A DNA stretch of 64,000 bases from assembly GCF_000832305.1 (NCBI RefSeq), contig NZ_CP010536.1:62001-126000 (forward strand), written 5' to 3'. Numbering within the stretch: position 1 is the stretch's first letter; each line of letters begins with the position of its first letter. Both the position numbers and the translations under genes were made by a program. The stretch is from Cupriavidus basilensis. Its GTDB lineage: Bacteria; Pseudomonadota; Gammaproteobacteria; Burkholderiales; Burkholderiaceae. A model generated the notes under the pieces. The model searched no databases. It had not been told where the DNA came from and saw only the letters and a program-made list of their open reading frames with translations. This document shows, piece by piece, positions 5,946-28,819 of the stretch.

Positions 5946-7235
5946 ATGAACGATTTCCTGGCACTGCCGGCGCGTGAGCTGGCGGCACGCATGGCGCGGC
6001 GCGAACTCAGCGTGCAGGCATTGGTACGCGCGTACATCGCGCGCATCGACGCCGCCGAGGCCGGCATTCTGGCCTGGCAGCATTTCGATGGGGCGCAGGC
6101 ATTGCAGCAGGCACGGCAGCTGGATGCGGGGCCTGCCTTGGGCGCGTTGCACGGCTTGCCAATCGGCGTGAAGGACCTGATGGACACCGCCGACATGCCT
6201 ACCACCTATGGCTCGCCGATCTACGCCGGCCATCGGCCCGTCATGGACGCCGCCTGCGTGGCAATGGCGCGCGCCGCGGGTGCGGTGGTCATGGGCAAGA
6301 CCGTGACCACGGAGTTCGCTACGTTCCAGCCGGGTCCCACGCGCAACCCGCGCGCTCCCGCCGATGCCCCGCGCACGCCGGGCGGCTCGTCCAGCGGATC
6401 GGCGGCGGCGGTGGCTGCCGGCATGGTGCCGATCGCCTTCGGCACGCAGACTGCCGGCTCCATCATCCGTCCTGCCGCCTATTGCGGCGTGGTCGGCTAC
6501 AAGCCGACCTTTGGCACGCTGCCGTCGGCCGGCATCAAGTCACTCTCGCCCAGCCTGGATACCGTGGGCGTGCTGGCGCGCTGCGTCGACGATGCGGCCT
6601 TCTTCATCGGCGCGATGGCGCGCCTGCCGCTCACGCCGCCGCAGGCCGGGCAGGCGACGCGGCTGCGCGTTGGCATTTGCCGCACCCCGCATTGGGAGCG
6701 CGCGGGGGATGACAGCCGGCGTGCGCTGGACACGGCCGCGCGCTGGCTCGAGGGCCGTGGCGCCGTGTTGAGCGACCTGATCCTGCCCGCGCAATTCGAC
6801 GAACTGACGCAGGCCCAGATCGACATCATGGCGTATGAAGCCGCAGCCGCCTTCGCGCCGGAAATGCGCGCGCGGCCCGATGGTTTCAGCAGTGGCTTTG
6901 CCGCGTTGCTGGCGGCCGGCCGCGGCATCGACGGCAGCCGCTTCTTTGCCGCGCAGGCGCTTGCCGGTTCCGCACGCAGGGCCTTCGGGCAGATGTTCGA
7001 TTCCGTCGACATCGTCCTCGCGCCGAGCGCGCCGGGGGAGGCGCCGGCCGGCCTGGGCGCGACGGGCGATCCCATGTTCAACCGCATGTGGACGCTGCTT
7101 GGCAATCCCTGCGTCCATGTGCCTACCAGCACGGGTGCGCACGGCATGCCGGTGGGCGTGACGCTGATTGGCCCGTGCCGGGGCGATGCGCGCGTGCTTG
7201 CGGCTGCGCAGGCGCTTGAGCGCTGCGTGGCTTGA
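5946..7235 (+). CDS. amidase signature family hydrolase
   Basis: Cytoplasmic amide hydrolase (429 residues) of the amidase-signature family, which uses a Ser-cisSer-Lys triad. The lysine is in GLPIGVKDLMDTADMPTTYG (about residues 74-93), the Gly/Ser-rich core is GGSSSGSAAAVAAGMVP and the nucleophile serine lies in FGTQTAGSIIRPAAYCGV. A GGAG at 5935-5938 sits 7 bases before ATG. It follows livF directly and precedes an M20 hydrolase, so the natural substrate is probably an amide or carbamoylated compound brought in by the ABC system. Names such as AtzF, GatA or mandelamide hydrolase cannot be assigned from sequence alone. Confidence 0.9.
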   Translation: MNDFLALPARELAARMARRELSVQALVRAYIARIDAAEAGILAWQHFDGAQALQQARQLDAGPALGALHGLPIGVKDLMDTADMPTTYGSPIYAGHRPVMDAACVAMARAAGAVVMGKTVTTEFATFQPGPTRNPRAPADAPRTPGGSSSGSAAAVAAGMVPIAFGTQTAGSIIRPAAYCGVVGYKPTFGTLPSAGIKSLSPSLDTVGVLARCVDDAAFFIGAMARLPLTPPQAGQATRLRVGICRTPHWERAGDDSRRALDTAARWLEGRGAVLSDLILPAQFDELTQAQIDIMAYEAAAAFAPEMRARPDGFSSGFAALLAAGRGIDGSRFFAAQALAGSARRAFGQMFDSVDIVLAPSAPGEAPAGLGATGDPMFNRMWTLLGNPCVHVPTSTGAHGMPVGVTLIGPCRGDARVLAAAQALERCVA

Positions 7236-9239: not shown

Positions 9240-9241
9240 TC

Positions 9242-9271
9242 TTGACACCCCCCAACCCCCCATGTTCCAAT
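9242..9271 (+). promoter_or_regulatory. putative promoter for the structured leader
   Basis: A perfect -35 hexamer TTGACA occurs at 9242-9247, directly behind the XRE-cupin stop. The matching -10 region is weak (TTCCAAT around 9265-9271). Initiation would fall near 9278, just upstream of the first paired base of the leader at 9290, which is what a riboswitch promoter would need. Confidence 0.4.
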
Positions 9272-9289
9272 CCGCCCACATTCTGATTT

Positions 9290-9387
9290 GGGTCGACGCC
9301 CAAGCCAACCTGCCTTCCCGGGCAAGGTGGATCGCGAAAGCGGATGTGGCTCCTTGAGGAGCAACCAAACGGGCCATGCGTCGACCC
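9290..9387 (+). promoter_or_regulatory. candidate riboswitch aptamer (class not recognised) in the leader of the ADP-ribosylglycohydrolase gene
   Basis: A perfect 10-bp closing helix pairs GGGTCGACGC (9290-9299) with GCGTCGACCC (9378-9387). Inside it three hairpins can be drawn. P2 is 9305-9314 with 9321-9330 (two single-base bulges, loop TTCCCG). P3 is 9331-9335 with 9340-9345, closed by a GAAA tetraloop. P4 is 9349-9353 with 9358-9362 (loop TTGA). An unpaired AACCAAACGGGCCAT joins P4 back to the closing helix. The last four bases of the closing helix (ACCC, 9384-9387) are also the first four of the terminator stem, so the two folds exclude each other. I cannot match it to a known riboswitch class by eye. 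Confidence 0.6.
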
Positions 9388-9408
9388 TCCTAGCACGGAG
9401 GGTTTTTT
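9384..9408 (+). terminator. intrinsic terminator / SD-sequestering expression platform
   Basis: Stem ACCCTCC (9384-9390) pairs perfectly with GGAGGGT (9397-9403), loop TAGCAC, with U-tract to 9408. The 3' arm GGAGGG (9397-9402) is also an ideal Shine-Dalgarno for TTG at 9407, so the hairpin would block both elongation and initiation. Formation of the upstream closing helix would remove ACCC from the stem and switch expression on. Confidence 0.72.
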
Positions 9409-10531
9409 GTTTTCTGCTTCGGTCATTGATCACGAGATCACACGCAGCCGCTTCCAGGGCTGCCTGCTGGGCGGCGCTGTTGGCGACGCACTGGGCGCTC
9501 CGGTGGAGTTCCTGTCGCTCGCGCAGATCCGCGAGCGCTTCGGCAAGGATGGCATCACCAGCTACGCCCCGGCCTACGGGGGCGTCGGCACCATCACCGA
9601 TGACACGCAGATGACGCTGTTCACGGCGGAGGGCTTGCTGCGGGCGTGGGTGGGCGAGGCGAGCGGGGGCATGGGCAGTGTGCCTGGCGTGGCCTCGCGC
9701 GCTTATCTGCGCTGGTTGCTGACGCAGGGGATCCAGCCGGCGTTTCATCGCGATGTGCTGTCGGACCAGCCGGGATGGCTTTACCAGCAGGCGGCACTGC
9801 ATAGCCGGCGCGCGCCGGGAAACACTTGTTTGTCGGCGCTGGAGGCGATGCTCAAGCTGGGCGAGCCCGCGCGCAACGACAGCAAGGGCTGCGGCGGCGT
9901 GATGCGTGTGGCGCCGGCTGGCCTGTTTGTTTGGCGGCGCGCCGGGCAGCGATCGTCTCAGGATGCCTTTGCCCTGGGAGCGGAGCTGGCTGCGCTTACC
10001 CATGGACATCCAAGCGGATCGCTGACGGGCGGCGTGCTGGCGGTGTTGATCCGCGAGCTGGCCGACGGCGCTGCGCTGCCTGATGCCTTGGCGAGCGCCA
10101 AGGCGTGCTTGTCCGCGCGGCCGGGTCACGAGCAGACGCTGCTGGCGATCCTGCATGCGCAGGCGCTGGCCGACTCCGGCGTGGCCGCAGATGACGCCAT
10201 CGCGCGCCTGGGCGAGGGCTGGGTGGCGGAAGAGGCGTTGGCCATCTCCATTTACTGCGCGCTGGTCGCGCGTGATTTTCGCCACGGGGTTGTGCTGGCG
10301 GTGAATCACGATGGCGACTCGGATTCAACGGGCGCCATCACGGGAAACCTGCTGGGCACGTTGCTTGGCGTGGAGGCGATTCCGCCCGAGTGGCTGGCGC
10401 CTCTGGAGCTGCGTGAAGTGATCACCGAGCTGGCTGACGACCTGAGCGTGTTCCCGGAGTGGAACTTGGGCATCGACCCGGCAGACGAGGCGCTGGTTCA
10501 GCGCATCTGGACGAAGTATCCTGGGCTTTGA
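9407..10531 (+). CDS. ADP-ribosylglycohydrolase family protein (DraG-like)
   Basis: Predicted to hydrolyse ADP-ribose from a protein, nucleic acid or small molecule using a binuclear Mg site. Family motifs are present in order: GCLLGGAVGDALGAPVEF, the metal-binding TDDTQM, GCGGVMRVAP, ALTHGHPSG and the C-terminal NHDGDSDSTGAITGNLLG, which supplies the remaining metal ligands. The frame is open upstream to an ATG at 9344, but that would translate through the structured leader and terminator. TTG 9407, 4 bases after GGAGGG, is therefore preferred and gives 374 residues. No ADP-ribosyltransferase partner (DraT-like) is nearby, so a role in NAD or ADP-ribose salvage or in stress is as likely as DraG-type reversal. 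Confidence 0.87.
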   Translation: MFSASVIDHEITRSRFQGCLLGGAVGDALGAPVEFLSLAQIRERFGKDGITSYAPAYGGVGTITDDTQMTLFTAEGLLRAWVGEASGGMGSVPGVASRAYLRWLLTQGIQPAFHRDVLSDQPGWLYQQAALHSRRAPGNTCLSALEAMLKLGEPARNDSKGCGGVMRVAPAGLFVWRRAGQRSSQDAFALGAELAALTHGHPSGSLTGGVLAVLIRELADGAALPDALASAKACLSARPGHEQTLLAILHAQALADSGVAADDAIARLGEGWVAEEALAISIYCALVARDFRHGVVLAVNHDGDSDSTGAITGNLLGTLLGVEAIPPEWLAPLELREVITELADDLSVFPEWNLGIDPADEALVQRIWTKYPGL

Positions 10532-27835: not shown

Positions 27836-28285
27836 ATGAAAACCGCACGGCAGGTTCTTGAGTCCAAACCGACCCAGGCTATCTACAGCATTCCCCCTGG
27901 CGCCACAGTTTATGCTGCGCTGCAACTGATGGCGGAAAAAGCCATTGGCGCGTTATTGGTGATCGAGCGCGGCGATATCGTTGGGATTTTGAGCGAGCGG
28001 GATTATGCGCGCAAGGTGATCCTGATGCAGCGGACTTCCCGGGAGACCTTCGTTCGCGACATCATGACGTCGGCGGTGATCTATGTGCGCGGGGATCAGA
28101 GTACCGATGAGTGCATGGCGTTGATGACGCAGCATCGGTTGAGGCACTTGCCGGTGATGGACGGCGATACCCTGGTGGGGATGTTGTCGATCGGGGATCT
28201 GGTCAAGGATATTATTTCCGAGCAGAAATTCATCATCGACCAACTGGAGCACTACATTAGCGGGACGCCGCATCTCAAGCTCTGA
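27836..28285 (+). CDS. CBS-pair domain protein
   Basis: 149-residue cytoplasmic protein made almost wholly of two CBS motifs (KTARQVLESKPTQAIYSIPP with GALLVIERGDIVGILSERDY, and VRDIMTSAVIYVRGDQS with HRLRHLPVMDGDTLVGMLSI). CBS pairs bind adenosine nucleotides and act as energy or redox sensors. The ATG is set by AAGGAG at 27824-27829. No fused enzymatic domain, so it likely regulates another protein in trans. Confidence 0.9.
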   Translation: MKTARQVLESKPTQAIYSIPPGATVYAALQLMAEKAIGALLVIERGDIVGILSERDYARKVILMQRTSRETFVRDIMTSAVIYVRGDQSTDECMALMTQHRLRHLPVMDGDTLVGMLSIGDLVKDIISEQKFIIDQLEHYISGTPHLKL

Positions 28286-28819
28286 TCTCATTGCCCGGGG
28301 ATTCCTGGTTGAAGGGCGCTGGTGAGCGGCGCCCCATACGGCCTTGGCACATCTTCATGGCTCGCTTCGCTCCGTGCGGCGGGTGGCTTGTCAGGCGTTG
28401 CCCAATCTGGCCCCGCTGTATCGGGTACGCTCCTGTCGCTGCCGGCGACAAAAAACCGCAAGATTTTCGTTTTTTCGCTTCGTGCCGGCTTGCTGGCAGA
28501 TAGCCGCTCGTATTGAGCAGAAGTGCGCATGTTCCGGTAAAAAGCACGTCTGCGCCGCATCAGAAACCAACTTAGTGCCGCACTCCATATTTGGTATCCG
28601 CATATAATTATGCATTCACTGAATTAGGCCCGCCCGGGCCGTGCAGGCGGCATCTGCCAGCTCGTGGCAGTGCTCGATTCGCGCAGCGCCGGGTACGCGT
28701 CAAATCGGTTGATTTCAATTTTGTGGTCATGTTCCCCGATGTAGGCTGACAAACGAGGTGGTTTGTTGGTGGTTGGGCGCAACGTTGGTTGCTCATGACT
28801 ACGCGCCCTGCTGCCTCCG
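28286..28819. other. 534-bp intergenic region with a dispersed repeat and a promoter-like element
   Basis: No convincing gene. It contains one copy of a dispersed repeat (28330-28370, listed separately) and an AT-rich promoter-like patch with TATAAT at 28603-28608 inside the imperfect palindrome GCATA-TAAT-TATGC (28600-28613). From there to the exporter start is about 210 bases, a long leader if used. Confidence 0.5.
28330..28370 (-). repeat. dispersed intergenic repeat, copy 1
   Basis: Read on the - strand, these 41 bases match 36625-36664 on the + strand with three substitutions and one extra base. The core includes GCGAAGCGAGCC and GGCCGTATGGGGCG. Two copies 8 kb apart in opposite orientation indicate a family of intergenic repeats. 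Confidence 0.7.

Follow-up and report, generated by a model that had tools for sequence, protein, structure and literature searches.

A riboswitch-like leader lies directly upstream of an ADP-ribosylglycohydrolase gene in Cupriavidus basilensis, which raises the question of what this RNA would sense, in which direction it would act, and how the gene came to stand behind it. The window, by which we mean the whole 64-kb stretch of DNA that was analysed, had been given a first-pass annotation that recognised the gene as well as a leader with mutually exclusive helices and an intrinsic terminator, and both points are borne out here (Table 1). The same annotation described an ON switch of no known class with a ligand related to NAD, ADP-ribose or a nucleotide, whereas the comparisons below lead to a different reading. 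With a probability of roughly 0.86, the leader is a SAM-I/IV riboswitch that controls transcription termination, is repressed by SAM, and was inherited by the glycohydrolase gene after the loss of an operon. We know of no metabolic reason for a SAM-repressed glycohydrolase.

Table 1. Features of the leader and its gene, in positions of the window
Feature	Position	Strand	Evidence or remark
Candidate -35 TTGACA	9242..9247	+	Read from sequence
Weak -10 TCCAAT	9266-9271	+	Spotted by eye, 18 nt past TTGACA
SAM-I/IV aptamer (Rfam RF01725)	9273..9378	+	55.9 bits, cut-off 41.1, full model 1-99
P1	9278-9282 with 9343-9347	+	Paired in 97.8% of cells, 18 rows; no both-sided changes
J1/2 CUGAU (family: AAGAG)	9283..9287	+	G11, A12 kept; A10, G13-C41 pair lost
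P2	9289-9293 with 9298-9302	+	Competitor of antiterminator
P3 with SAM-binding internal loop	9305..9330	+	C44, A45, U57, G58 equivalents at 9306, 9307, 9328, 9329
Pseudoknot from P3 loop	9317-9320 with 9370-9373	+	100% of cells paired; 1 pair with both-sided change, in one row
P4 hairpin, GAAA cap	9333..9342	+	Alignment of leaders
P5 hairpin	9349..9362	+	2 pairs with changes on both sides
Predicted antiterminator (closing helix of the first-pass annotation)	9290-9299 with 9378-9387	+	
Intrinsic terminator, then T tract	9384-9390 with 9397-9403; to 9408	+	
Shine-Dalgarno GGAGGG; TTG start	9397-9402; 9407-9409	+	
ADP-ribosylglycohydrolase gene	9407..10531	+	PF03747, 6.8e-74

Class membership and ligand pocket of the leader

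Far from lacking a class, the leader passes the Rfam cut-off for SAM-I/IV, which is the sole Rfam match in the window and the sole copy found in the 8.4-Mb genome. The interval first proposed, 9290..9409, does hold the features described within it, and the three hairpins noted there, one with a GAAA loop, are present as P3, P4 and P5; the element itself starts further 5', so that P1 and P2 had been missed. An alignment (A1) was computed from 18 leaders of the window's type, drawn from 16 genomes and including the window, in which 90.7-100% of cells are paired per helix for P1-P5, P2 being the lowest because the G13-C41 pair is lost, and all four pairs between the P3 loop and the 3' strand are kept throughout. 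The leader structure is real, its support coming from the covariance-model match and covariation rather than from stability, the folding energy of 9270-9420 being unremarkable (z -1.31; 19 of 200 shuffles as low).

The TTGACA hexamer reported upstream is present, as is the Shine-Dalgarno sequence in the terminator arm, 4 nt before the TTG start. A promoter scan at its threshold returned 0 sites, with no good -10 hexamer after TTGACA, and in the relative L002 the arrangement TTGACA-17-TCTAAT was read by eye. The listing of open reading frames puts the glycohydrolase start elsewhere, at an in-frame ATG at 9344, inside P1.

With SAM-I/IV RNAs (RF01725, the 'SAM-I-IV-variant' in the part of PMC2864571 used here) the leader has in common P1, an undivided P2, P3, P4, P5, the P3-loop pseudoknot and the SAM pocket, and its P2 is free of an internal loop, as that part of PMC2864571 requires of the class. 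It differs in its J1/2, which reads CUGAU where the model consensus has AAGAG with a G13-C41 pair (the cut-off is passed regardless), and in the use of a P2 arm as antiterminator, while its relatives differ in their gene set, DUF3293-metK2-ADP-ribosylglycohydrolase. We treat the missing AAGAG and G13-C41 pair as lineage variation and not as the loss of a defining feature. Control of methionine or SAM genes, a further mark of SAM-I/IV, is predicted in relatives (metK2, a metY-like gene) and not in the window. The pocket of SAM-I (S-box) leaders is the same, but the window's P2 is a 5-bp hairpin with neither the kink-turn internal loop of SAM-I nor room for one, and has a 3' P5 and pseudoknot instead. 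The terminator logic of the leader resembles that of many SAM-I leaders. SAM-IV, as presented in the excerpted text of PMC6890682, has the 3' P5 hairpin and P3-loop pseudoknot in common with the leader but is marked by a P2 split into P2a and P2b and by having no P4, whereas the window's P2 is undivided and P4 is present. The SAM-SAH riboswitch of Rhodobacterales (excerpt of PMC4239095) is alike in being a riboswitch on metK, but belongs to a different RNA family. Judged by its sequence, then, the leader belongs to a known SAM sensor class, SAM-I/IV, at an unusual site, SAM binding itself being predicted.

The prediction is founded on the pocket. In SAM-I, positions 6-8, 11-12, 44-47, 57-59 and 87 lie within 5 Å of SAM (PMC6890682, in the excerpt used), and roles of G11/C44/G58 and of U7 are given in the corresponding part of PMC3764141; the SAM-I numbering of P3 positions in Table 1 follows the same portions of both papers. 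None of the 18 A1 rows, window included, departs from the others at the equivalents of A6-U88, U7-A87, G11, A12, C44-G58, A45 and U57, and position 8 is U in 16 rows and C in 2. The A10 position is U (16), C (1) or G (1), never the family consensus, and G13-C41 is never G-C (A.A, U-A, A-U or U.U are found); positions 9, 10, 13 and 41 fall outside the 5 Å list given in that excerpt of PMC6890682. The conserved pocket is thus that of SAM, from which SAM binding would follow, and a ligand related to NAD or ADP-ribose finds no support.

Such departures in 18 of 18 rows, together with a window gene that has no known tie to SAM, might also be accounted for by a SAM-I/IV fold with shifted specificity, whose relaxed J1/2 would sense a SAM relative (e.g., SAH, decarboxylated SAM, or methylthioadenosine). 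This is improbable, as the SAM-contact nucleotides compared are unchanged apart from position 8, and a SAM synthetase gene, metK2, follows in 8 of the 13 A1 loci with DUF3293. Moreover, L214, L215 and L216 combine the canonical AGAG with the same antiterminator, L215 also with DUF3293 next, and because such loci exist the relaxed J1/2 looks like drift inside the SAM class.

Gene neighbours in relatives and the probable origin of the fused locus

Of the 60 genomes of the genus 9 carry RF01725, as do 74 of 398 at family level, all 78 places there being taken as loci. A model built from A1, termed R1, matches 31 of 399 genomes of the order and, in the class, 2 of 369, which speaks against a wide spread of the leader; the genome of the window is among those matched in both R1 counts. 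From 38 order-level places 14 were fetched, the window, the contig-end matches in G683 and G526, and 21 places at or below 63 bits being left out. A phage origin was considered and rejected, 9240-9430 having no match in the phage collection.

Among the 18 A1 loci, the leader is followed by DUF3293 in 13, a fused glycohydrolase in 4 (the window, L004, L005 and L010), and an integrase in 1 (L134). The metK2 gene follows DUF3293 directly or slightly further on in L002, L003, L008, L132, L146, L148, L154 (in two frames) and L156; the L146 protein, the sole one tested, shows all three Pfam SAM-synthetase domains and matches NCBIfam metK at 510 bits (cut-off 309). In 7 of the 12 genomes searched metK2 is additional to a metK that is 59-60% identical to it, and the remaining 5 have only that metK. 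Nine of the 13 DUF3293 loci (G003, G014, G039, G040, G270, G127, G361, G283 and G365) also have a glycohydrolase gene at most ~3 kb away and on the same strand, the exceptions being G006 (other contig), G094 (19 kb off), and G107 and G144 (nearby, other strand). Beyond the family the association with these genes weakens: among the 14 order-level loci, DUF3293 is next in 6 and cut short in a seventh (L210), metK2 is found in 1 (L209), and in L222 the leader precedes a gene named metY-like by eye; PF03747 had no match in any of the 10 order-level genomes searched. A literature search among open-licence papers returned none on DUF3293.

The operon appears to decay repeatedly, since the match to metK2 in G283 (L154) is split between two frames and an in-frame TGA interrupts DUF3293 in G144 (G144:C49:603-824). 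Other arrangements were observed as well. In L094 and L095 (genus g12) a canonical SAM-I/IV leader and terminator are followed by a small protein, which in L094 has no Pfam match, and DUF3293 is a later gene. In L210 some 57 DUF3293 codons run in frame into an unrelated ORF, giving 279 aa in all. The sequence of L220 departs from DUF3293 after ~11 codons, and the 5' half of its aptamer is replaced; this locus was set aside as a candidate in-frame capture, as the frame does not fit and there is no recognised partner, so that only L210 stands.

The history of the window locus can be traced through intermediate arrangements. The order is leader-DUF3293-metK2-glycohydrolase in G270 (L132) and leader-DUF3293-glycohydrolase in G040, and the leader stands directly before the glycohydrolase in the window, G003, G005 and G058. 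The first ~10-11 codons of the window's glycohydrolase (to ~9439) resemble a DUF3293 start: the fused proteins begin LFSASVIDHEI (window), LFSASVFDREI, LFSASVIDREI or LFSASVSVIDRDI, like DUF3293 of G040 (LFSASVIDREL), and continue TRSRF.GCLLGG, like the glycohydrolase of G040 (ARSRFRGCLLGG). In a tree with 23 of the 80 homologue loci as outgroups, the glycohydrolases of the window, G003, G005, G058, G040 and G270 (two) form one clade (96/98) among leader-free homologues. The window's genome (G000), G005 and G058 each hold one metK and no DUF3293; the DUF3293 search gave no match in the window's genome and does find the gene in other genomes. Counting against the proposed history, G003 has, besides its fused copy, a complete DUF3293-metK2 locus at another site. 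Relatives such as these suggest that an ancestral operon of riboswitch, DUF3293, metK2 and ADP-ribosylglycohydrolase apparently lost DUF3293 and metK2 at the window locus and that the glycohydrolase was joined in frame to the DUF3293 start, by which it would have inherited the switch. The broken 3' part of a second ADP-ribosylglycohydrolase was also observed (L246 ~6042-6578; G000:C1 ~28041-28577), homologous to the one behind DUF3293-metK2 in G003.

That the leader of this lineage is a relic, still folded but regulating nothing useful after the collapse of the operon, would fit the loss of DUF3293 and metK2 and the decay of the second glycohydrolase. It is nevertheless very unlikely, given that the four fused loci show hardly any change in their aptamers, the fusion is in frame in 4 of 4, and the other three fused glycohydrolases are 90-95% identical to the window's. 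An inherited switch, rather than a remnant, remains the preferred reading, and we infer that it works in the window's strain.

Competing helices and the expected polarity of the switch

The 10-bp helix reported earlier exists, GGGTCGACGC (9290-9299) being the exact reverse complement of GCGTCGACCC (9378-9387), and perfect helices of 10 bp or more, with a loop of 20 or more, arise in 19 of 2000 dinucleotide shuffles of 9260-9420. The overlap described with it is present too: ACCC at 9384-9387 belongs both to this helix and to the 7-bp terminator stem (ACCCTCC/GGAGGGT) with its T tract, and is kept in the 18 aligned leaders. Since P2 draws on 9290-9299 for its 5' arm and loop, P2 and the 10-bp helix exclude each other, and a role of the latter as the closing helix of an aptamer is not upheld; it competes with both aptamer and terminator and is most likely an antiterminator.

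Compensatory changes in this helix are found among relatives. In A1 98.9% of its cells are paired and 3 of 10 pairs are changed on both sides, in 3 cells of rows L146 and L155 (2 of 18 rows), the helix of L155 being GGGTCGGTGC facing GCACCGACCC. Only 1 of 500 shuffles pairs as well, and sliding the partner by 1-3 columns abolishes the signal (31-59% paired). More changes are seen in distant leaders, which build the same design from different letters: GGGCTGACGC/GCGTCAGCCC in L219 and L221, as well as, in genus g12, TTTGTCGC/GCGACAAA in L091, L093, L094, L095 and L117 and TTAGTCGC/GCGACTAA in L092. Genus g12, which we take to be Polynucleobacter, has a canonical J1/2, and in 6 of its 8 loci the partner of the 3' strand is the P2 loop together with the 3' side of that hairpin, so that a competitor fits better than a fixed closing helix. 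No P1 pair is changed on both sides within the 18 rows, and the sole such change in P2 is at the G13-C41 position, which is unpaired in 10 of 18 rows; of five covariation measures for the aptamer helices one, 'further pair types', is not above shuffles (360 of 500). In the wider family P2 has at least 4 pairs in each of 92 parsed loci (55 distinct segments), L218 and L220 being mis-cut among them.

A SAM-I/IV riboswitch would use these folds as follows. When SAM is scarce, 9378-9387 would capture the 5' arm and loop of P2, and the resulting 10-bp antiterminator would block the terminator and allow the gene to be read. When SAM is abundant, its binding between P1 and P3 would lock P1, P2 and the P3-loop pseudoknot and leave 9378-9387 free, whereupon the terminator (9384-9403) would form and stop transcription, its hairpin also hiding the Shine-Dalgarno sequence. 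An OFF switch is expected because the SAM-stabilised P1-P3 fold would free 9378-9387 for the terminator, and class precedent makes SAM repression the most likely polarity in place of the ON switch first suggested. Both competing folds were computed; without ligand the energies of the two states are equal (-40.8 and -40.6 kcal/mol), whereas for the full transcript the fold of minimum energy contains the terminator alongside 6 bp left over from the antiterminator. Since the equilibrium fold keeps the terminator, any read-through in the absence of ligand would depend on co-transcriptional kinetics.

The least likely reading, an ON switch of a new class closed by 9290-9299/9378-9387 and sensing NAD, ADP-ribose or a nucleotide, can draw on a real overlap of helix and terminator, in which a ligand-stabilised helix would block termination, and on better covariation of this helix than of P1 or P2 within the 18 rows, but it is opposed by the Rfam match to a SAM class, by the need of P2 for the 5' strand, by the alternative P2 pairing in genus g12, and by the rarity of the leader among glycohydrolase homologues (see below).

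Probable recruitment, possible insertion and significance

Other leader-linked glycohydrolases lie far from the clade of the window's protein: 6 in metK2 operons, 3 near ybjN-like genes, and 1 on a Polaromonas plasmid. Those tested are 26-27% identical to the window's protein, as against 46-78% for the 80 homologues. Two well-separated groups stand behind DUF3293-metK2, and a third, ybjN-linked, in G365 and on the Polaromonas plasmid. At least 2 label changes are required on the tree, and in none of the bootstrap trees would 1 suffice, with the starred branches alone forcing just 1, in an analysis for which the program warns of long branches and whose outgroups are only relatives of the window's protein. 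Glycohydrolases were therefore likely recruited to the leader more than once, as far as sequences can tell. That the leader generally accompanies this glycohydrolase was rejected, R1 finding it in 2 (L011 and L013) of the 80 homologue loci, which reach at most 2 kb upstream and in some cases less. No link between such a leader and an ADP-ribosylglycohydrolase was found in the open-licence papers searched.

The plasmid in question is pPNAP04 of Polaromonas naphthalenivorans (L224 8001-11501), on which a leader-like stretch (75.6%, by blastn only) shares one strand with genes for DUF3293, YbjN and an ADP-ribosylglycohydrolase; the group is flanked by transposase genes, and a TerD/VWA cluster is nearby. 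Repeated recruitment raises the possibility, tentative and on balance doubtful, that SAM level is connected with the removal of ADP-ribose in a way not yet recognised, and that a mobile SAM-economy module carries this connection.

The terminator itself may be a site of rearrangement. In G270, L134 resembles L132 as far as the T tract of the terminator, and from there onward it is L162 that resembles L132, with an overlap of 10 nt (TTTTTTGTTT); in L134 a tyrosine integrase (PF00589) comes next. The region upstream of the operon in L162 (L243) encodes proteins that, by eye, we take to be products of trb conjugation genes. A similar junction is found in L216 (G558, another family), where the leader is followed by TTTTTTAT and then by an integrase 80% identical over 205 residues. 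ICEs of the Tn4371 family are reported with the direct repeats TTTTTCAT, TTTTTTAT and TTTTTTGT (in the part of PMC2789088 used here). A Tn4371-like element appears to have inserted at the riboswitch terminator T tract (TTTTTTGT / TTTTTTAT) in G270 and G558, which appears to separate the switch from DUF3293-metK2-glycohydrolase and to put an integrase gene downstream of it. The break of similarity at the T tract, with an integrase after the leader, suggests that insertion of an integrative element can detach the switch from the operon it belonged to. An ICE inserted at such a T tract was not found in the open-licence papers searched, nor was a SAM-I/IV leader on metK in Burkholderiaceae.

According to the excerpted text of a 2014 survey, metK in beta-proteobacteria was not covered by the regulators known to it (PMC4239095), and the metK2 operons described here supply a predicted regulator for a beta-proteobacterial metK. 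They also tie DUF3293 and this group of ADP-ribosylglycohydrolases, both poorly understood, to SAM supply. The fused locus would further illustrate how deletion and in-frame fusion may hand a switch on to a new gene, and the terminator T tract of a riboswitch may serve as an insertion site for integrative elements.
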